From: Actinomycetes bacterium
GTDB taxonomy: Bacteria > Actinomycetota > Acidimicrobiia > Spongiisociales > UBA5794
Length of the DNA: 49,246 bases
Reading direction: 5' to 3'
Assembly: GCA_023336815.1 (NCBI GenBank)
Contig: JAMBLJ010000032.1
Span: 1-49,246 of the forward strand
Part shown: in pieces, positions 1-11,264 of the stretch
Position numbering within the stretch: the stretch's first letter is position 1
How the letters are laid out: each line of letters opens with the position of its first letter
The notes under the pieces: model-generated
Databases searched by the model: none
What the model saw: only the letters and a program-made list of their open reading frames with translations
What the model was told of the DNA's origin: nothing
Program-made: the position numbers and the translations under genes

Positions 1-29
1 CAGAATCCCTTGCGACGCAAGGGATTCTG
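1..29. terminator. Perfect 14-bp inverted repeat (hairpin)
   Basis: The first 29 bases are a perfect palindrome with 14-bp arms around a single central base; in RNA the innermost pairs would open into a small loop. No T-tract follows on the plus strand (next bases are CGCGTTTGG), so it is not a textbook intrinsic terminator. It may be a bidirectional terminator of a gene to the left, or a fold-back artefact at a contig end, because it starts exactly at base 1. The structure is certain, its role is not. Confidence 0.5.
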
Positions 30-68
30 CGCGTTTGGGGTCAATCCTTCGAAAGCGCCAATTCGGGC

Positions 69-200
69 TTGGGACACCTGGGACACATTGCTGCAGCGTT
101 CTACCAGCGTCACGGCTTCGTGCCACTCGAGCAGAACCCGAACCACCTGTACGTGTTGATGGAGGACCTGAGAGCAGCGATACGACGAAGCCTCGGATAG
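69..200 (+). pseudogene. C-terminal remnant of a GNAT acetyltransferase (TacT-like)
   Basis: This frame reads AAAFYQRHGFVPLE, then NPNHLYVLMEDLRAAI, and stops at TAG 198-200. That is the typical end of a GCN5-related N-acetyltransferase: the acetyl-CoA-site FYxxxGF motif, then the final strand and helix, closest in pattern to TacT/AtaT-like toxins that acetylate aminoacyl-tRNA. Only about 35-43 residues are convincing. The frame stays open to base 1, but the upstream residues, which include the palindrome, do not look like the preceding GNAT strands. No start codon with a ribosome-binding site and no DUF1778/CopG-type antitoxin is visible. It is either a gene cut by the window edge or a 5'-truncated relic; I favour a relic because the upstream homology breaks off. 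Confidence 0.5.
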
Positions 201-413: not shown

Positions 414-2564
414 TTGGTGGGCCGGCGAACCGACAATATCTCGATCGCAACCCGGATCGCTGTTGCGATCACGGTCATAGCGGTTGGCGCACTTGTCGTC
501 ACGCTCGTGTACGGATCGATCGTCCGGGACGAGTTCACCCGATCAGGACTTGAGGCCCGATTCTCAGCAACTGCTGTTGCGAAGGCTGACGAACTCGATC
601 GTTATGTTGCGTCGCTGAGGTCTGACACGCTCCAACTCGCCGCAAGTCCGATGATCGTTGAGGCTGCGCAGAGCTTCTCGACCGCATACGGAGAACTGCC
701 TTCGTACGAGTCCCTGCCTGATGAGCAGAAGGACTCCCTGCTTGCTGAGTATCGCGATGATGTCGTACCTGGGCTGTCTGAGGCGCGGGGGCATCCGATT
801 CCCATCAGGGATGTGCTTCCTGTCACCAGCGAAGCAAGGTATCTCCAGACGGTGTACGCATGGATGGCGATCCAGGATGATCTCGCTCCTGTAAACATCG
901 ACGATGCGCGTGACGGATCGTCGTGGTCCGACGTGCATCTTGAGTTTCATCCTTCGCTTCGAGCGACTGCAGAAGCGTTCGGCTTCTCCGATATCTTTCT
1001 GGTCGACCCTGATACAACGGCGATCGTGTACTCGGTGGCCAAAAACTCGGACTTCGCGACCAGTTTGGCAGTCGGACCCGTCGGCGGATCTGGGTTCTCG
1101 ACCCTGGTCCAACGGATCGCACAGAACCCACAACCAGGAACAGTCTCGACGGTCGACTTCTCAAGGTACGACCCCGACATCGCCGCTCCTGTCGCATTCT
1201 TCGGCAGCCCGGTCTTCGATGGTGACCGGTTGGTATCTGTGCTGGTCGCAAAGATCACACCAGAACGCTTGACAGAGATCACAACTCAAGGCGGCGACTG
1301 GGATTCGATGCGCATCGGGGAGCAAGGTGAGATCCTCATCGTGGGTCCGGAGGGCCGTTTACGCAGTGACTCGCGTGCCTACCTTGAGGATCCGGATCGG
1401 TACTTCGACGCTGCTGTGGCATCAGGAACACTCGACTCCGGGGATGTTGGGGGTGTGCAATCGGCTGGGACCACGGTTCTTTTCCAACGCATGGACGCTT
1501 CGACATTCCGTGCGCTCCAGTCGTCGCCAGACGAGATGGTGGCGTCGAATAACTACCTCGGAGAAGCTGTATTCACCTCGATCGACGAAATCGGCGATGG
1601 GACCGTCGGCTGGAAACTGATCGTTCAAGTACAACGAGGTGAAGCGCTTGCGATCAGTGACGATGCCGAGCGGATGGGAGCGATCGCGGTCAGCATTTTT
1701 GTTCTCATCTTGACCTTCATCGCGGCAATGTGGGCTGCGTCTTTCATCAGGCCAATCGTGGTGTTGTCCCTGAGGCTGAAAGCCCTTGTTGTCGGGGGAG
1801 ACGGGACGAAGCAGGCGGCAGCACTCAGCTTGGAGGCGACACGCACAACAGCGGAGTTCGCCGAACTCACTGATGCGATCAACTCCATGCTCGTCAATCT
1901 CAATGAACGTGAGCGATCGGCCGTTGAGGCCGAGGCCGAGCGAATAGAGGTGATCCGCCGCTTCTTGCCGCGCGACGCTGCACGCCAGATCGCTTCCGGC
2001 GAACGCAGTATCGAACGCGCCGCCCACGCCTCCGTGGTCTCGGTAGCGATCACCGATATGGGTGCATCGGGTGGGGACAATCCAGTTGATTCTGCTAGAG
2101 AACGTATAGCGTCGCTGGTCGAGACACTTGATCAGATCGCTGTTGAGCATGATCTGAAACGCGTCAAGGTCGTCGGAGATCTATGGGTGGCTGTATGTGG
2201 ACTGGGTACACCGCACGTCGACCACGTCGCAAGGTGCCTCGCTCTCGCTGAAGACATCGTTGATATCCATCTAGATGGGGACCGAACTGGCAAGACGGTC
2301 GCGATCGCCATCGGCATTGCCTCTGGCCCCGTGAGTGCGGGTCTTGCAGGTAGCAACCGGCTTGTATACGACGCCTGGGGTGCCCCGGTCGACCAGGCGA
2401 ACGATCTCGCACGTGTAGCGAAACCGGGCGAGATCGTCGTGTCAGAATCCGTGGTCGAACAATTGCCTTCGGGAGTCATATCGGTGCAGCGACCCGTAGG
2501 GACGAAGGGTCGTGTTGCGTGGACGATCGACCCGGATGTGTCGAGTTCGGAGGTACCCGCGTGA
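414..2564 (+). CDS. Membrane receptor with dCache-like sensor, HAMP and degenerate class III cyclase domain
   Basis: The 716-residue protein has a membrane segment at about 13-35, a large extracytoplasmic dCache-like region (about 40-415, with FHPSLR, FGFSDIFLVD and IVYSV typical of cyclase and chemoreceptor Cache sensors), a second membrane segment (about 422-445), a HAMP-like linker and a class III nucleotidyl-cyclase fold (about 535-705). The two metal aspartates are present (D548 in ITDM; D589 in KVVGD), as are the purine-recognising Lys585 and Asp653. The transition-state Asn and Arg positions read Asp660 and Asp664 (VDQAND instead of VNxAxR). It may therefore bind a nucleotide without normal cyclisation; this is inference. 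The start is TTG 414 (GTG 417 is an alternative). It overlaps the next gene by four bases (GTGA), so the pair is translationally coupled. Confidence 0.88.
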   Translation: MVGRRTDNISIATRIAVAITVIAVGALVVTLVYGSIVRDEFTRSGLEARFSATAVAKADELDRYVASLRSDTLQLAASPMIVEAAQSFSTAYGELPSYESLPDEQKDSLLAEYRDDVVPGLSEARGHPIPIRDVLPVTSEARYLQTVYAWMAIQDDLAPVNIDDARDGSSWSDVHLEFHPSLRATAEAFGFSDIFLVDPDTTAIVYSVAKNSDFATSLAVGPVGGSGFSTLVQRIAQNPQPGTVSTVDFSRYDPDIAAPVAFFGSPVFDGDRLVSVLVAKITPERLTEITTQGGDWDSMRIGEQGEILIVGPEGRLRSDSRAYLEDPDRYFDAAVASGTLDSGDVGGVQSAGTTVLFQRMDASTFRALQSSPDEMVASNNYLGEAVFTSIDEIGDGTVGWKLIVQVQRGEALAISDDAERMGAIAVSIFVLILTFIAAMWAASFIRPIVVLSLRLKALVVGGDGTKQAAALSLEATRTTAEFAELTDAINSMLVNLNERERSAVEAEAERIEVIRRFLPRDAARQIASGERSIERAAHASVVSVAITDMGASGGDNPVDSARERIASLVETLDQIAVEHDLKRVKVVGDLWVAVCGLGTPHVDHVARCLALAEDIVDIHLDGDRTGKTVAIAIGIASGPVSAGLAGSNRLVYDAWGAPVDQANDLARVAKPGEIVVSESVVEQLPSGVISVQRPVGTKGRVAWTIDPDVSSSEVPA

Positions 2565-4060
2565 CTGTGGTCCCTGATGACGCCATTGTGATCTGGGTCG
2601 TCGCCTTCATCGTGATAGCACCGCTCATCGTCATAGGTGCTGGAGAGCTGGAGGGACGACTGAGATTTCGCGACTCCGCCTTCGTTCCGACGATATCGAT
2701 ACTCAGAGTCTGGGTTCTTCCTCTGACCGCGATCTGGTTGGTTGGTTCGGCGATTCTCGGATTCAACGCTCTACTCGTACGGCTGGTTGCAACTGCCGCC
2801 GTGTTCGCGATCGGTGCTGACCTGGTCGCGATGGCTGCGGTTTTCGTCGGACTTGTCCGATCCCGTGCAGCGAGCGGCGCGAGACGCAACGTCCCAAGGC
2901 TGCTTCTTGCGATACCGAAGATCATCGTTGTGCTGTTCGTCAGTTGGGTTCTGCTCCAGGTCGTCTGGGCCGTCGATCTCAGTGCCATGTTCCAGGCGCT
3001 TGGTGTGACAACACTCATCATCTCGGTGGCACTCCAGGACACGATCGGTGGGATCGCCTCGGGGTTCCTGCTCATGCTCGATCGCCCGTTCCAGCCAGGC
3101 GATTGGATCAAGGCTGAGGACGTCGAGGGCAGGGTCGTGGATACGAACTGGCGCAGTTCGCGCATCGAGAACAGAGATCACGATCTCATCATCGTGCCGA
3201 ACGGGAAGCTGGCTGGTGCAACGATCATCAACTTCGATCAACCTGCACGACTCCACCGCGTTCAAGTCGATCTCCAGGTCGCCTTCTCGAACCCGCCCAC
3301 CCTTGCCAAGGAGATGATCCTCGACGCGGCGCACTCGGTGTCGGGTGTGCTTGAAGATCCAGCCCCTTCTGTCATCGTGACCCAGGTTGATGATCCCCTC
3401 ATGGGCTACTCCGTGCGGATGTGGATCGAGGACTTCGCGATCGATCCGCGAGTCAAGAGCGACTTTCGGTCGCTTGTTTGGTATATGTCCCACCGGCACG
3501 GTGTGCCGCTTCCAAGTCCTGCCTTCGACCTGTACACATACGACGGTCCGGAGACTGCGGCAGCGGGAGCACCGAAGGCCTCCGAGATTCGATCACGGCT
3601 CATCAGTTCTCACCTCCTTGATGGCATGGCCGATGAAGATGTGGATCATCTCACTGCCCTGTCATCGCTCGACCGCTACGCCGCGGGAGAGATCATTACC
3701 GATCGGCTCGGTTCAGACTCGGTTCTGTTCACGCTCTGGCAAGGTGAAGCCAGCATGGAGATCCATGGGCCGAACGATGCGATCCGCGTGATGACGGATC
3801 TCACGCCAGGCGATGTCTTTGGACTCGTATACCCGCCCGAAACGGAAGATTTCTCCCTCCAGGTCGTTGCTGTGAGTGACTGTGAGGTCGTTCGCACCGA
3901 CTTTGAGACAGCTGGGCCTGTCGTTGCGAAAGACCGAGCTCTCCTTGACGCGATCGGTCAGATTCGTGCGACGAGAACGAGGCGGATGGACAGACTCGTT
4001 GCCTTGATGGATAGCAGCGTGATCGATGCCGGATCGAGTGATGCGGCGGAACGATCATGA
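2561..4060 (+). CDS. MscS-family channel with C-terminal cyclic-nucleotide-binding-like domain (bCNG type)
   Basis: The 499-residue protein has about five hydrophobic segments, ending in the glycine/alanine-rich pore helix (GVTTLIISVALQDTIGG), then the MscS beta domain (RPFQPGDWI, VPNGKLAGATIINF) and alpha/beta domain to about residue 325. A C-terminal beta-roll (about 345-470) has the cNMP-binding layout: YAAGEII, LF-L-GEASMEI, LTPGDVFG, VVAVSDCEVV. This is the architecture of bacterial cyclic-nucleotide-gated MscS relatives. The phosphate-cassette Glu after FG is Leu422 and the expected RxAT arginine is absent (FSLQVVA), so classical cAMP/cGMP binding is doubtful. GTG 2561 was chosen because GGAGG lies seven bases upstream and it overlaps the previous stop as GTGA. 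Its own stop overlaps the next start as ATGA. Confidence 0.88.
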   Translation: MTVVPDDAIVIWVVAFIVIAPLIVIGAGELEGRLRFRDSAFVPTISILRVWVLPLTAIWLVGSAILGFNALLVRLVATAAVFAIGADLVAMAAVFVGLVRSRAASGARRNVPRLLLAIPKIIVVLFVSWVLLQVVWAVDLSAMFQALGVTTLIISVALQDTIGGIASGFLLMLDRPFQPGDWIKAEDVEGRVVDTNWRSSRIENRDHDLIIVPNGKLAGATIINFDQPARLHRVQVDLQVAFSNPPTLAKEMILDAAHSVSGVLEDPAPSVIVTQVDDPLMGYSVRMWIEDFAIDPRVKSDFRSLVWYMSHRHGVPLPSPAFDLYTYDGPETAAAGAPKASEIRSRLISSHLLDGMADEDVDHLTALSSLDRYAAGEIITDRLGSDSVLFTLWQGEASMEIHGPNDAIRVMTDLTPGDVFGLVYPPETEDFSLQVVAVSDCEVVRTDFETAGPVVAKDRALLDAIGQIRATRTRRMDRLVALMDSSVIDAGSSDAAERS

Positions 4061-6237
4061 CGACCCCCTCGCCACAACCCACGGTAGAACAGGACGGACA
4101 AGCGCAGGGCGCTTCTCGTCTCCGGTCGTCCGGGACCGTTCTCACGAGGATGTTCGTGGCTGTTGCTGTGCTGGCGGTTGTTGTCATCGGCGTCGTGAAC
4201 GTTGTTGGAGCGTTGCGGATCTTCACTGCAACCATCGACAGTCAACTCTCGAGTTTGGCGACCGACCGTGCCGGAACTGTGACCAACGAACTCGAACATG
4301 TGAAAGCCCAGGTCGCAGTGCTCGCCCAGGATGCATCAATCGCCGCAGCGTCGCGGGACCTCGTGTCGTCTTTCACTGAGCTTGGCGAGTCAGGTGGAGA
4401 GCTGACGGCGAGCCAGGAGCAGGAACTCGTCGAATTCTACGCTCGGGACGAGATCGCATCTGGAGCTGTGGAGGAAAGCGCGGCGATCCCCCAATCTATG
4501 TCCGGGCAGTACGTCCAGTATCACTACATCGTCGACAACCCCGACGTCGACAGCGACCGAGCGCTCCTCGTCGATGCGGGCGATGGTTCTGCCTACAGCC
4601 AGATGCACAGCCAGTACCACCCGATGCTCAGAGCGAGGGCGGAATTGCTCGCAGTCGAGGATCTGCTTTTGATCGATCTTGGCGCAACCTCCGAAGTGGT
4701 GTACTCGGTCAACAAGCGGATCGACGTGGGGACTTCGTTGCAGTCCGGTCCGTACCGTGACTCCACACTCGGTGTAGCTCTGGCCGAACGGCTCGACACC
4801 GTTCCTCCAGGTGAGGCGATCCTCGTCGACTTCGATCGCTATGTACCTGCTGGCGGCTCTCCGACGATGTTCGCGGTCGCGGCTGTTCGAGATAAGACGG
4901 AAGTTGTCGGTGCGGTTGCGGTGGCACTCCGTGGAGACTTCCTCGATTCGATCACCACGTTCGATGGCGGCTGGGAATCCGTCAACGTAGGTGACACCGG
5001 CGAGATGTATCTCGTTGGTAGCGACAGCCTCATGCGCTCAGTGTCACGGATGTGGGTGGAGGATCCTGCCTCGTATCTGTCAGCGGTCGAAAAGGAGGGG
5101 TATCCCCCAGAAGTATCGGCTGCGATCAATGATGTCGGCACAACGGTTCTTGGTCAACCTGTTGCGACCGACGCCGTCGCAGCGGCCCTCAATGGCTCTG
5201 TCTTCTCTGACGGGAGTAAGAGCTACCTCGGTGTTCGGACATTCGTATTTGCGCAACCGCTCGCCGTACCCGACCTCGACTGGGTGATCGTTTCCGAGTT
5301 CGCCAGGTCGGAGGCCCGGGGTCCTCTGTGGGGTTATCTGATAACCCTGGGGCTCCTCGCTCTTGCGGTGATTCCTGTGGTCACGATCATTGCTGTGTAC
5401 ATGGGGAGACGTCTCACGCGGCCCGTCGAACCCCTGGTTGGTGCGGCCGATGCGATCGCATCTGGAGATGTCGACGTTGAGATTCCCGCGCTCGGTAGGA
5501 ACGAGTACGGTGACCTGGGCAATCGAATCAACACCCTCACTCGTGAATTGAGAGAACGCGATGATAGGAGGCGAGAGGAGGAGCGATCCACATCACAAGT
5601 GCTCCTCGCTGCTCTACCGCCGAGACTCGTGGAAGGCGTCAGGGGCGCTATCAAAGACGGCACCATCACGGTGGCATCAGATTTCAGCGACCTCATATCC
5701 GATTGCACGGTCATTGCCGTCTCTGTGCGTGGATACTTCGATCTCGGTGCATCGGATATGGAGCAGACGCTCGAGGTAAGCACAGAGCTGGCAAAGTCGG
5801 TCGAAGAACTCGCTAGGCAGTGTGATCTCGAACGCGCTCGATCTACGCCAGGAGACTTCGTGTTCTCGGCAGGACTGCAGTCCGAGGGTCATGGGACCGC
5901 CGACGCTGTGAGGTTCGTCGGTGGGTTGCTCGTTCTTCTTGCCGAGCTTCAGGAAGAAACTGCTCATACCGGCGAGTTCCGGATCGGCGTGAGTTCTGGA
6001 CAGGTTGCCTCCGGTCTGCTGCGTGGGAATGAGATTTCTTTCGGGACGTGGGGCGCACCCGTACGAACGGCGATGCTCCTCAGTCAGATCGCCGATCCGT
6101 ATCAAGCCCTGGTAGACGAGGTAGCGGCAGAGGAATTCGAGAATTCCTGGGATCTCCGCCGCGTCGAGACGGTGGACCTTCAGGGCAGTGAGCTTGTTGT
6201 GTTCGCTCTCGACGATTCGTCGAGTCCATCTACGTGA
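4057..6237 (+). CDS. Second membrane receptor, Cache-HAMP-pseudocyclase
   Basis: This 726-residue paralogue of the first receptor has a membrane segment at about 28-53, a Cache-like outer region (YHPMLRAR, LLLIDL, VVYSV, YLVGSDSLMRS), a second membrane segment (about 425-448), a well-formed HAMP (RRLTRPVEPL...NEYGDLGNRI, about 449-500), a short coiled linker rich in Glu/Arg, and a cyclase fold (about 545-715). Almost all catalytic positions are lost: metal Asp to Ser556, purine Lys to Ser596, purine Asp to Gly663, Asn to Arg670, Arg to Leu674; only Asp600 remains. It cannot form a cyclase active site by known rules, and it cannot supply the Asn/Arg missing from the upstream partner. I infer a signal-receiving or regulatory subunit that pairs with the first receptor or the channel. 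ATG 4057 overlaps the channel stop by four bases. Confidence 0.86.
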   Translation: MTTPSPQPTVEQDGQAQGASRLRSSGTVLTRMFVAVAVLAVVVIGVVNVVGALRIFTATIDSQLSSLATDRAGTVTNELEHVKAQVAVLAQDASIAAASRDLVSSFTELGESGGELTASQEQELVEFYARDEIASGAVEESAAIPQSMSGQYVQYHYIVDNPDVDSDRALLVDAGDGSAYSQMHSQYHPMLRARAELLAVEDLLLIDLGATSEVVYSVNKRIDVGTSLQSGPYRDSTLGVALAERLDTVPPGEAILVDFDRYVPAGGSPTMFAVAAVRDKTEVVGAVAVALRGDFLDSITTFDGGWESVNVGDTGEMYLVGSDSLMRSVSRMWVEDPASYLSAVEKEGYPPEVSAAINDVGTTVLGQPVATDAVAAALNGSVFSDGSKSYLGVRTFVFAQPLAVPDLDWVIVSEFARSEARGPLWGYLITLGLLALAVIPVVTIIAVYMGRRLTRPVEPLVGAADAIASGDVDVEIPALGRNEYGDLGNRINTLTRELRERDDRRREEERSTSQVLLAALPPRLVEGVRGAIKDGTITVASDFSDLISDCTVIAVSVRGYFDLGASDMEQTLEVSTELAKSVEELARQCDLERARSTPGDFVFSAGLQSEGHGTADAVRFVGGLLVLLAELQEETAHTGEFRIGVSSGQVASGLLRGNEISFGTWGAPVRTAMLLSQIADPYQALVDEVAAEEFENSWDLRRVETVDLQGSELVVFALDDSSSPST

Positions 6238-7376: not shown

Positions 7377-9359
7377 TCACGCCTGATGGGGAGAGAGACG
7401 TTCGATCAATCGGCGTCGCGATGCCTGGTCACCGAACACGGTGAGCGCGTCCCCTGATTGGAGTTCCAGATCGCCAGACGCAACGAGCAGGTCGTTGCCA
7501 CGGTGTACCGAGACGACGATGCACCCCTCTGGCCATGAGACCTCACGGATCTTTCGCCGATCGGCCGCTGATCCTGGTGGGATCTCGAATTCGAGGTATC
7601 CGGTCGCTTGTGAGGTACGGGTCGCGATCCGCTGAGGGAGATGATTCGCCCTTGCCGCCGTACCCAGAGCGAGATGGTACGCAGCGATCGCATCCTCGCG
7701 CCTGAACATTGCCTCGATCTGCCCGGGATGTCGACGATCGACAACCGGGAGTCTTCCGACACCGAGGACCGCCATCCGTTCGAGGGCCTGTGACACCGGG
7801 AGATCGATCGAGACGGTCGCTGGATCCGGGGTCATCGCGTCCTTGGCCGTGAGTTGGTCTGCGGCACCCCCGAGTCTGGTGATATCTGAATCAGAGACGA
7901 TGCCAACGAGACGACCCTCCGCATCAACGACCGCCACCCCATTGAGGCGGTTACGCCGCAGCAACCCGTGTACCTCGGCGAGGGTGTCCGACGGTGACGC
8001 CGTTGGAGGGCGTTCAAGACCCAGATCACCGATCGTCACCGTGGCCAGGATATCGACCTGATCACTGGGGACGGTGTGGATACCCATACGAACCAGTGGG
8101 GAGGTGTAGGCGCTCTCGGGATGCAACCGACTGGTCAGGACGGTCGCGATGGCGACCGCAAGCATGAGCGGAAGCACAAGCCCGTAATCGCCAGTGATCT
8201 CAAAAACGATGAGGATCGATGTGAACGAAGCTCGCGACACACCTGCGAATACCGCAGCCATCCCTACAAGGGCGAACGCTCCCGGGTCGAGGCGTGATGC
8301 GGTCCAGATCGGATCGGCGACGATGGCGAAAGCGGATCCTGCCATCGCGCCGATGAACAGGCTCGGCATGAAGATCCCACCGGAACCTTTTCCCCCGAGC
8401 GTCGACGATGTCGCAACAAGTTTGGCGATCGCCAGGATCGCGAATATCCACCATGCCCTGGTGACCTCTTGGCTCAGTACCGACCCGATGAACCGCTGAC
8501 CTGTACCCAGTACCTCAGGATACGCGTACCCGATCGCAGCGACTCCGAGACCCATAATCAGTGGCCTCATCCAGGGGATCAGTCGGTCCGGCACGATCGT
8601 GAACCAGTCAAGAGCTTCGATGAAGAGGATCGCCAGCCCGACCGCGATGAGGCCGAGGACAGCGTAGGGGAGAAGCTGGGTCGGGTCGTCGAGCGAATAG
8701 GGTGAGACATCAAACGTGAGTTCGTCGCCGATGAGTGTGTGGGAGACAACCGCTCCGGCAACGGATGCGACGGCAATGGTGTGCAGATGGCGTATCGATA
8801 CGTCGCGGAGGATCACCTCCATGGCGAAGAACATACCTGCGATGGGCGCGTTGAAAGTGGCGGCGATACCAGCACCAGCTCCGGCAGCCACAAGGGCACG
8901 AACCTCGGTCTCCTCCAACTTCGTGACCCTGCCAACGAATGACCCGATACCTGCGCCGATCTGAGCGATGGAACCCTCTCGCCCTGCTGACCCACCGACA
9001 CCGATCGTGAGCGCTGTCGCGATCGTCTTGAGAAACGGCACCCGCATCGGGATCCTTCCCCGATGCAGGGTGAGGGAGGCAAGTATCTGGGGAACACCGT
9101 GGCCAGCGGCCTCTGGTGCCCACTTCGCTGTGATCGCCCACGCGAGCCAGATCCCTGCAGGGACAACGATGAACAGCCATGTCCTGCCAAGAGCGGGGCC
9201 CGCTGCTGTGAGGTTGAGCACTGTGGTGGAAACAACACGTAGCGCATACACCAATGCTGCGGCACCGACTCCTGCGCCTACGCCGATCAGCAAGGCCAGG
9301 GCCATAAGGGAGGCCTTGCTGGAGGGGTGTAGCCAACCCTTGCGTTCTGGAGCGTTCAC
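7377..9359 (-). CDS. ClC-type chloride channel/transporter with CBS pair and RCK_C domain
   Basis: The 660-residue membrane protein has the ClC pore region (about 15-435), then two CBS repeats (about 455-575) and a C-terminal TrkA-C/RCK_C-like domain (about 585-655, ending LQSGDALTVFGDQ). Pore motifs are GHGVP (86-90), GSAGREGS with gating Glu128, and FNAPIAG-FFAMEV (169-182). The residue aligned with the internal proton glutamate of exchangers (Glu203 of E. coli ClC) appears to be Val182, which favours channel-like or altered coupling; the alignment is by eye. CBS domains normally bind adenine nucleotides and RCK_C domains ions or small ligands, so gating by cellular state is likely. The gene stands alone on the minus strand. 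Confidence 0.92.
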   Translation of the reverse strand: MNAPERKGWLHPSSKASLMALALLIGVGAGVGAAALVYALRVVSTTVLNLTAAGPALGRTWLFIVVPAGIWLAWAITAKWAPEAAGHGVPQILASLTLHRGRIPMRVPFLKTIATALTIGVGGSAGREGSIAQIGAGIGSFVGRVTKLEETEVRALVAAGAGAGIAATFNAPIAGMFFAMEVILRDVSIRHLHTIAVASVAGAVVSHTLIGDELTFDVSPYSLDDPTQLLPYAVLGLIAVGLAILFIEALDWFTIVPDRLIPWMRPLIMGLGVAAIGYAYPEVLGTGQRFIGSVLSQEVTRAWWIFAILAIAKLVATSSTLGGKGSGGIFMPSLFIGAMAGSAFAIVADPIWTASRLDPGAFALVGMAAVFAGVSRASFTSILIVFEITGDYGLVLPLMLAVAIATVLTSRLHPESAYTSPLVRMGIHTVPSDQVDILATVTIGDLGLERPPTASPSDTLAEVHGLLRRNRLNGVAVVDAEGRLVGIVSDSDITRLGGAADQLTAKDAMTPDPATVSIDLPVSQALERMAVLGVGRLPVVDRRHPGQIEAMFRREDAIAAYHLALGTAARANHLPQRIATRTSQATGYLEFEIPPGSAADRRKIREVSWPEGCIVVSVHRGNDLLVASGDLELQSGDALTVFGDQASRRRLIERLSPHQA

Positions 9360-9939: not shown

Positions 9940-9965
9940 GTGCGGCGGCACGGGAGGTGCACACA

Positions 9966-11264
9966 GTGGCCGTCATCGTCGTTCTTGTGTTGTTCCTTGC
10001 CTACGCCCTGTTGTCACGACGACTCGATCGCAGCTCGCTCACCGGTCCGATGGTTTTCACGATCGCCGGCATTGCCATTGCGAGTTTCTTCATTTGGACC
10101 GGGACAACCGTCGGGTCGTTGGAGCAGGACATCGAGAGTCCGGCTGTGCAGTTCCTCCTCGAGATAACGCTCGTGATCATCCTGTTCTCTGATGCGGTGT
10201 TGATTGATTTCAGGGCAGTTCGCAAGGAGGCATTCCTCCCAGGAAGACTTCTCGGTATCGGTCTCCCCCTGACCATCGTTGCCGGAACTGTGGGTGTGAT
10301 GGTCATCGTTCCTGGTATCGGATTCTGGCCAGCTGCGGTGATCGCGATCATCCTTGCACCAACCGACGCCGCGCTCGGGCAAGCCGTTATATCGAATGAG
10401 GAGGTGCCAGGTCTGGTGCGTCAGGGGCTTGGTGTGGAGAGCGGTCTCAACGATGGGATCGCTGTTCCCTTTCTCGCCATAGCGGTTGCGGGTGCCGCCC
10501 AAGAGATGCAGACGGGTGCCGAGATAGCGGTCGTGTTCCTGGAGGAGATCGGACTTGCCGTTGCCATCGGGCTCGGCGTCGGCTGGCTGGGCGGCAAGAT
10601 AGTCTCCCTGGCCTACGAGAAACAGTGGATGACACGTGGCTGGCGTCAGGTGTCCGTGGTCCTTCTCGCTCTGCTGTGTTTCGCTCTTGCTGACCCGATC
10701 GGCGGATCAGGCTTTATCGCGGCCTTCGTAGGTGGGTTGACGTTCGGTGCACAGATCCGAAGGTCGTATCCCGACATCTGCAACTTCTCAGAGAGTGTTG
10801 CACACGTTTTCACGATGCTGGCGTTCCTGGTATTCGGAGCGTTCATCCTGACGCCGGCGCTGGGTCTGGTGAACTGGCAGATCGTCCTCTACGCCATTCT
10901 GAGCCTGACAGTCATCCGGATGGTTCCTGTCGCGCTCGCCCTCATCGGCACAGGTCTTGGACTCCGAACCCAGTTGTACATCGGTTGGTTCGGACCACGA
11001 GGTCTCGCGTCGCTTGTCTTCATGGGTACCGTGGTCGTCGGTGCAGACGCCGGTGGAGCCGCGGCGATTATCGCTGTTGGAGCCACAACAGTTGGTCTGT
11101 CGGTTCTCCTGCATGGACTGACTGCCTGGCCATTGTCCGCACGCTACGCCAGCTGGTATGCGACGTCGATGGAGGGCGACGGAACCGAGGAGATGGTAGA
11201 GAGTCAAGAAGTCGAGCACATGCCGGTGTCCAAGTTTCAGGGACGTCTACGGCAACCGACGTGA
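9966..11264 (+). CDS. Cation/proton antiporter, CPA1 (Na+/H+ exchanger) family
   Basis: The 432-residue protein has about twelve hydrophobic segments and the Na_H_Exchanger fold. Recognisable motifs are FSDAVLIDF in the fourth segment, APTDAALGQAV (the ion-binding TD region of the CPA family) and VESGLNDGIAVP, whose Asp is the conserved ND residue of electroneutral CPA1 exchangers. The late segment has GPRGLASLVF. It would exchange Na+ or K+ for H+ across the inner membrane for pH and ion homeostasis. GTG 9966 was preferred over GTG 9957 because GGGAGG (9952-9957) is correctly spaced only for the former. It is convergent with the GMC oxidoreductase, with eight bases between the stops. The ClC gene nearby also concerns ion balance. 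Confidence 0.9.
   Translation: MAVIVVLVLFLAYALLSRRLDRSSLTGPMVFTIAGIAIASFFIWTGTTVGSLEQDIESPAVQFLLEITLVIILFSDAVLIDFRAVRKEAFLPGRLLGIGLPLTIVAGTVGVMVIVPGIGFWPAAVIAIILAPTDAALGQAVISNEEVPGLVRQGLGVESGLNDGIAVPFLAIAVAGAAQEMQTGAEIAVVFLEEIGLAVAIGLGVGWLGGKIVSLAYEKQWMTRGWRQVSVVLLALLCFALADPIGGSGFIAAFVGGLTFGAQIRRSYPDICNFSESVAHVFTMLAFLVFGAFILTPALGLVNWQIVLYAILSLTVIRMVPVALALIGTGLGLRTQLYIGWFGPRGLASLVFMGTVVVGADAGGAAAIIAVGATTVGLSVLLHGLTAWPLSARYASWYATSMEGDGTEEMVESQEVEHMPVSKFQGRLRQPT

Follow-up and report, generated by a model that had tools for sequence, protein, structure and literature searches.

A conserved actinobacterial operon of two predicted pseudocyclase receptors and an MscS-type channel with a degenerate CNB-like domain

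Gene layout and predicted domains

The window analyzed here is the whole 49,246-nucleotide stretch of DNA, and near its start lie three genes, R1, CH, and R2, which are joined by 4-base overlaps as an earlier note on this DNA had described (Table 1). The contig starts within what appears, when read by eye, to be the C-terminal end of a GNAT acetyltransferase (window 1-200). An ion-transport neighborhood is present 3' of the operon, comprising a ClC-type chloride channel with CBS and TrkA_C domains (7377-9359, minus strand) and a Na+/H+ exchanger (9957-11264, plus strand).

Table 1. Features of the R1-CH-R2 operon and residues assigned to catalytic or pocket positions
Feature	Position in window	Strand	Description
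R1	414..2564	+	Receptor, 716 aa, TTG start (exact start uncertain); order TM1, double Cache, TM2, HAMP-like, class III pseudocyclase
R1 first-metal region	2046..2057	+	A545 at the metal-1 position; D548 three residues further
R1 purine Lys and second metal	2166..2180	+	K585 (purine Lys) and D589 (second metal)
R1 base and transition-state region	2370..2405	+	D653 (purine Asp), D660 (Asn position), D664 (Arg position)
R1 stop/CH start	2561..2564	+	GTGA overlap
CH	2561..4060	+	MscS-type channel with C-terminal CNB-like domain, 499 aa, five predicted N-terminal helices
CH CNB-like domain	3578..3970	+	aa 340-470; L422 in place of the pocket Glu, F431 in place of the pocket Arg
CH stop/R2 start	4057..4060	+	ATGA overlap
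R2	4057..6237	+	Receptor, 726 aa; order TM1, double Cache, TM2, HAMP, pseudocyclase
R2 pseudocyclase	5689..6207	+	S556, R595, G599, G663, R670, and L674 at the six catalytic positions

The products had been read as two Cache-HAMP-cyclase receptors around an MscS channel with a CNB-like domain. These domains were found, several of them as weak or sub-threshold matches. In Pfam, R1 matched Guanylate_cyc (E = 1.8e-19) and, under the gathering score, dCache_1 (2.7e-7), and its HAMP match was weak (E = 0.34), while R2 matched HAMP (2.8e-11), Guanylate_cyc (2.9e-6), and, weakly, dCache_1 (0.034). PF00211 exceeded the Pfam cut-off in both receptors, which places both domains in the class III cyclase fold. 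The AlphaFold model of R2 contains a long stalk helix, a large mixed α/β periplasmic domain, and a second membrane helix; the modeled periplasmic domain is consistent with a double Cache domain, and the cyclase domain aligns with Pseudomonas aeruginosa CyaB (TM 0.80), with the class III fold retained.

CH matched MS_channel (PF00924, 6.8e-18) and PF21082 (2.5e-6), and both phmmer and Foldseek returned MscS structures, which top the Foldseek ranking; the TM3, β, and cage regions of MscS are recognizable. In the AlphaFold model of this protein (mean pLDDT 80.6), five N-terminal helices precede the MscS β/cage region, and a CNB-type β roll lies between helices. The cNMP_binding match of this CNB-fold domain was sub-threshold (E = 2.6e-5, 24.5 bits versus a 27.5 cut-off). 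NCBIfam gave no family for R1 and only generic families for CH and R2. The CNB-like region (aa 344-477) weakly matched NF041163, a family 2B encapsulin shell protein (E 6.6e-4), as did the mycobacterial channel described below (E 1.2e-5); the NF041163 protein also carries a CNB-type insert.

Conservation of the triad and its two-gene relative

In a search of 60 related genomes, we found eight orthologous channels (44-60% identity), with R1 ahead of all eight (8/8) and R2 behind the channel in the seven whose contig continues. A scan of GTDB genomes yielded 26 triad loci, mainly from Acidimicrobiia, with single loci from MAGs labeled Thermoleophilia and Nitriliruptorales, and the phylum and class samples contained further R1-CH-R2 loci. 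This neighborhood search had been set as a check on the original observation, and the order R1-CH-R2 was kept wherever it could be read, that is, in every locus reaching far enough (26 tabulated). R1 and CH overlap by 4 bases in 21/26 loci and by 8 bases in 5/26, and CH and R2 by 4 bases in 23/24; the loci are related, and these counts are hence not independent. Conservation across genomes excludes a chance neighborhood.

The receptor family was found in 9 of 247 sampled genomes of the class, and the channel was present in all of them (9/9). Each of the eight triad genomes has two receptor copies and the one genome with a single receptor-channel pair (G607) has one; no lone receptor was detected in this genome sample of the class at E<=1e-60. 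The channel is carried by about 5% of sampled class genomes (21/395).

Across four close locus pairs, dN/dS was 0.06-0.33 in the pseudocyclase and CNB domains, similar to what the Cache and pore domains show. Purifying selection maintains the pseudocyclase and CNB domains, which therefore do something. These values, together with the conserved R2 substitutions described below, exclude decaying pseudogenes. At one locus (L063, 2958-8451), each receptor is spread over two reading frames, possibly through sequencing error. The two R2 frames there share 4 bases (7450-7453) and lack the central part (about query residues 258-398), which looks as if the sensor and effector had turned into separate polypeptides.

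A two-gene form was also found. At 13 loci of the phylum sample, a single receptor of this type immediately precedes an MscS-CNB channel. Ten of these loci come from one genus (f42/g92; nine genomes) and three from another family (f70; three genomes), and G607, of the same class as the window, contributes one more. All of these (L117-L129 and L132) share the architecture and encode homologous proteins. The f42 genus carries PE proteins in up to 106 copies per genome, and since the PE family is mycobacterial, we take this genus to be Mycobacterium.

In Mycobacterium tuberculosis, Rv2435c has been described as a dCache adenylate cyclase (PMC4822843), and the adjoining Rv2434c as a membrane protein linked to cAMP signaling (PMC11205783). 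A 2004 survey of actinobacterial cyclases names both Rv2435c and Rv2434c and contains the words "operon," "cNMP binding," and "inactive cyclase domain" (PMC2447327). Based on architecture and this literature, the two-gene form is very probably Rv2435c-Rv2434c. The claim that no described system has this composition was, with this mycobacterial version in the literature, too strong. In the literature searched, we came across neither the three-gene form nor the joint degeneration reported below, nor anything relevant on MscS-CNB structure or under "pseudocyclase," and a plasmid search with the mycobacterial channel returned only distant MscS-type channels, mostly rhizobial. The kind of system is already on record through its mycobacterial relative; what appears to be undescribed, within this literature, is the form with two receptors and the degeneration on both sides.

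In the Rv2435c-Rv2434c type, as in the triad, the gene for a dCache-HAMP-class III cyclase receptor immediately precedes that for an MscS-CNB channel, in most cases with an overlap of a few bases, and the catalytic and CNB residues are degenerate. The two-gene type has one receptor, whereas the triad has a second, anciently diverged receptor after the channel. In an unrooted tree, R1, R2, and the pair receptors form three separate clades, and the triad receptors would therefore stem from one old duplication.

Catalytic and cyclic nucleotide-binding residues

To assign catalytic positions, we aligned 30 R1, 26 R2, and 14 pair receptors with a mycobacterial Cya (Rv1625c-type) as the reference. 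The earlier note had credited R1 with both metal Asp residues, taking D548 as the first. The family alignment rejects D548 as a metal ligand: its column is Gly in 29/32 R1 rows, and the metal-1 position is occupied by V/T/I/H/A/Q across the 30 R1 proteins, never by Asp (0/30). In a small alignment that lacks orthologues, D548 can shift into the metal column, which explains the misplacement. The assignments of K585, D589, D653, D660, and D664 were borne out by the same alignment. Across R1, the purine Lys is present in 28/30, the metal-2 Asp in 25/30, the purine Asp in 30/30, the transition-state Asn in 0/30, and the Arg in 5/30; at most loci R1 retains 3 to 4 of the 6 catalytic residues.

R2 has lost more. 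Asp is found at the metal-1 position in 4/26 and at the metal-2 position in 12/26; the Lys position holds Lys in 0/26 and Arg in 18/26, the purine Asp position Asp in 1/26 (a fragmentary row) and Gly in 18/26, the Asn position Asn in 0/26 and Arg in 18/26, and the Arg position Arg in 0/26. The Arg, Gly, and Arg replacements at the Lys, purine Asp, and Asn positions are themselves conserved (18/26 each). In the window, the losses previously read at S556, G663, R670, and L674 stand, but S596 does not: the second metal position is G599 (beside D600), and R595 occupies the Lys position.

No locus has a complete six-residue site in an R1/R1 or R2/R2 homodimer or in either R1/R2 composite; the best reach 4/6, as does the composite of R2 metal and R1 base residues in 5 loci. 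A composite active site in an R1/R2 heterodimer was ruled out, being incomplete at every locus counted. The description of two pseudocyclase receptors without a canonical active site holds in any homo- or heterodimer, and the cyclase domains of R1 and R2 are, as judged from sequence, folded and catalytically incomplete. Mammalian adenylyl cyclase C1/C2 and the α/β subunits of soluble guanylate cyclase likewise bring together two unequal domains of the kind expected to pair; these keep one working site, whereas the R1/R2 pairings give none that is complete.

The pair receptors have the metal-1 Asp in 11/14, Lys in 1/14, the metal-2 Asp in 1/14, the purine Asp in 13/14, Asn in 8/14, and Arg in 3/14. 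Their losses differ from those of the triad in that the metal-1 Asp and the Asn are often kept and the changes are Lys to Arg, metal-2 Asp to Asn, and Arg to Gln. Because the two forms lost partly different residues, catalytic loss may have occurred more than once. The closest full-length relatives among named records are dCache-HAMP cyclases of Sinorhizobium/Ensifer (L216-L218), which share the R1 architecture (27-30% identity over about 90% of its length) but have all six catalytic residues and no MscS-CNB channel alongside.

Bacterial cyclic nucleotide-gated (bCNG) channels consist of an MscS pore and a CNB domain (Caldwell et al. 2010 and Malcolm et al. 2012, as cited in PMC4560390). CH has the same layout, with a CNB-fold domain after the MscS pore and cage, but lacks the Glu and Arg of the phosphate-binding cassette that mark bCNG pockets. 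The cassette Glu is present in 0/29 triad and 0/14 pair channels (0/43 together), and Arg occupies its column in 6/29 and 0/14, respectively. As a control, we used 65 reading frames for MscS-CNB proteins, drawn around one Acidobacteria and one Rhodospirillaceae genome; almost all belong to two other phyla, and a few overlap. These keep the Glu in 64/65 and the Arg in 55/65. In the AlphaFold model of CH, residues 421-431, which correspond to the cassette, form a coil, and the usual short helix is absent. The equation of MscS-CNB proteins with bCNG channels therefore stands for the CNB-type fold only; that CH is a cAMP-gated bCNG channel does not follow, because its own cAMP pocket is degenerate. 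From sequence, loss of the canonical Glu and Arg lowers the likelihood that the domain binds cAMP or another ligand, without abolishing it.

Seven of the Acidobacteria control channels (L066, L210-L215) have a class III cyclase of CHASE2 type upstream (sensor type judged by eye). In all seven cyclases, the metal Asps, Lys, Asn, and Arg are retained and Thr replaces the purine Asp, a substitution common among bacterial class III enzymes; the cassettes of the linked channels are intact (7/7). Like the triad, this operon joins a membrane receptor cyclase to an MscS-CNB channel; it differs in its intact active-site residues and CNB pocket, its other sensor, and its single cyclase gene. It is likely to be a working unit of receptor cyclase and cAMP-gated channel, as predicted from these residues, and our search found no published description of it. 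In L066 (1548-6149), a gene for an M48-like protease lies between the cyclase and the channel. A Planctomycetota MAG (L065, 2935-6146) carries a tandem pair of MscS-CNB channels whose cassettes are both intact.

Because intact cyclases accompany intact channels in Acidobacteria, the channel-free receptor relatives are intact, and the receptors and channels linked here are both degenerate, the loss of cAMP synthesis and the loss of cAMP-binding residues coincide. On these residue patterns, a live enzyme accompanies a live sensor and a dead enzyme a dead sensor, and this predicted joint loss, which the earlier note had missed, is our main finding.

A receptor-controlled channel as the candidate mechanism

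From these results, we consider the chances about even that the MscS-type channel of this operon is under receptor control and has ceased to use cAMP. The best reading of the sequences would have the receptors coupled to the channel directly or through another nucleotide, and the route is probably direct contact between the pseudocyclase and CNB domains. In class III enzymes and in soluble guanylate cyclase, pairing runs through the cyclase domains, and by analogy an R1-R2 heterodimer, joined through HAMP and cyclase domains, is plausible. A ligand on the outside Cache domains would alter the conformation of the pseudocyclase dimer, which would touch the CNB-like domains attached to the cytoplasmic cage, pass the change on to them directly, and so shift channel gating. 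The former enzyme and the former cyclic nucleotide sensor would then be two halves of a protein-protein relay, and an adenine nucleotide still bound at the R1 Lys/Asp pair may serve in it as an allosteric cofactor. Against direct coupling, MscS channels are heptamers and the receptors would be dimers, a stoichiometric match that is not obvious.

Other readings assign the degenerate domains a different part. The pseudocyclase dimer might itself be a nucleotide sensor, with the Lys and Asp of R1 binding ATP or another adenine nucleotide and the occupancy of this site, together with the Cache signal, setting the channel; in some genomes the metal Asps would come from R2. Such a sensor would be an allosteric version of the route through another nucleotide that the earlier note had raised. 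The retention of Lys (28/30), purine Asp (30/30), and metal-2 Asp (25/30) in R1 fits such a sensor, as do the five loci in which R2 metal and R1 base residues add up to 4/6. Nucleotide binding is nonetheless no constant of the family, because R2 of the window lacks metal ligands (S556, G599) and the pair receptors lack the Lys (1/14), and a nucleotide sensor alone leaves the degenerate CNB domain unexplained; we regard this reading, including its contribution of metals from R2, as unlikely. It is somewhat less easy to believe that the channel is still gated by cAMP from other cyclases, or by a small ligand, through a non-canonical CNB pocket that the receptors tune. The standard Arg is not indispensable for ligand binding by CNB domains, and the CNB roll is retained under selection. 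In addition, the genome contains intact class III cyclases (for example, L075, with six of six residues) and three other CNB proteins, and cAMP signaling therefore probably exists apart from the operon. What weighs against such gating is the loss of the Glu in 43/43 linked channels, when controls keep it in 64/65, and the coil at the pocket in the model.

Two further possibilities we hold to be very improbable. One is that some unusual mechanism still lets R1, R2, or a dimer of the two produce a cyclic nucleotide. Class III sites tolerate some substitutions, and R1 mostly retains 3 to 4 of 6 residues, but R1 is without the metal-1 Asp and the Asn in 30/30, R2 is without nearly everything, and the receiving CNB domain is degenerate as well. 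The other, to which we give equally little credence, is a shared operon without a shared mechanism, with the channel acting as a plain osmotic valve and the receptors signaling elsewhere. MscS channels act alone in many bacteria, and sharing an operon need not imply contact; however, no readable locus has a receptor or channel alone (contig ends limit a few), and the receptor-channel order, mostly with overlapping genes, recurs in the pair form.

The original observation holds with one key residue corrected, and its interpretation is partly supported, with the channel side strengthened. Somewhat short of an even chance, in our estimate, is the wider proposal of a class of bacterial ion channels that transmembrane receptors gate by way of a dead cyclase directly touching a dead cyclic nucleotide sensor, with two receptors in Acidimicrobiia and one in mycobacteria. 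If it is true, a second-messenger pathway has been turned into a protein-protein relay, which would mean that a messenger-based pathway can lose its messenger at both ends yet keep its wiring, and bacteria would gain a receptor-operated channel. For the mycobacterial Rv2435c-Rv2434c pair, it offers the hypothesis of a "cyclase" that does not produce cAMP and a "cAMP-binding" channel that does not bind it.
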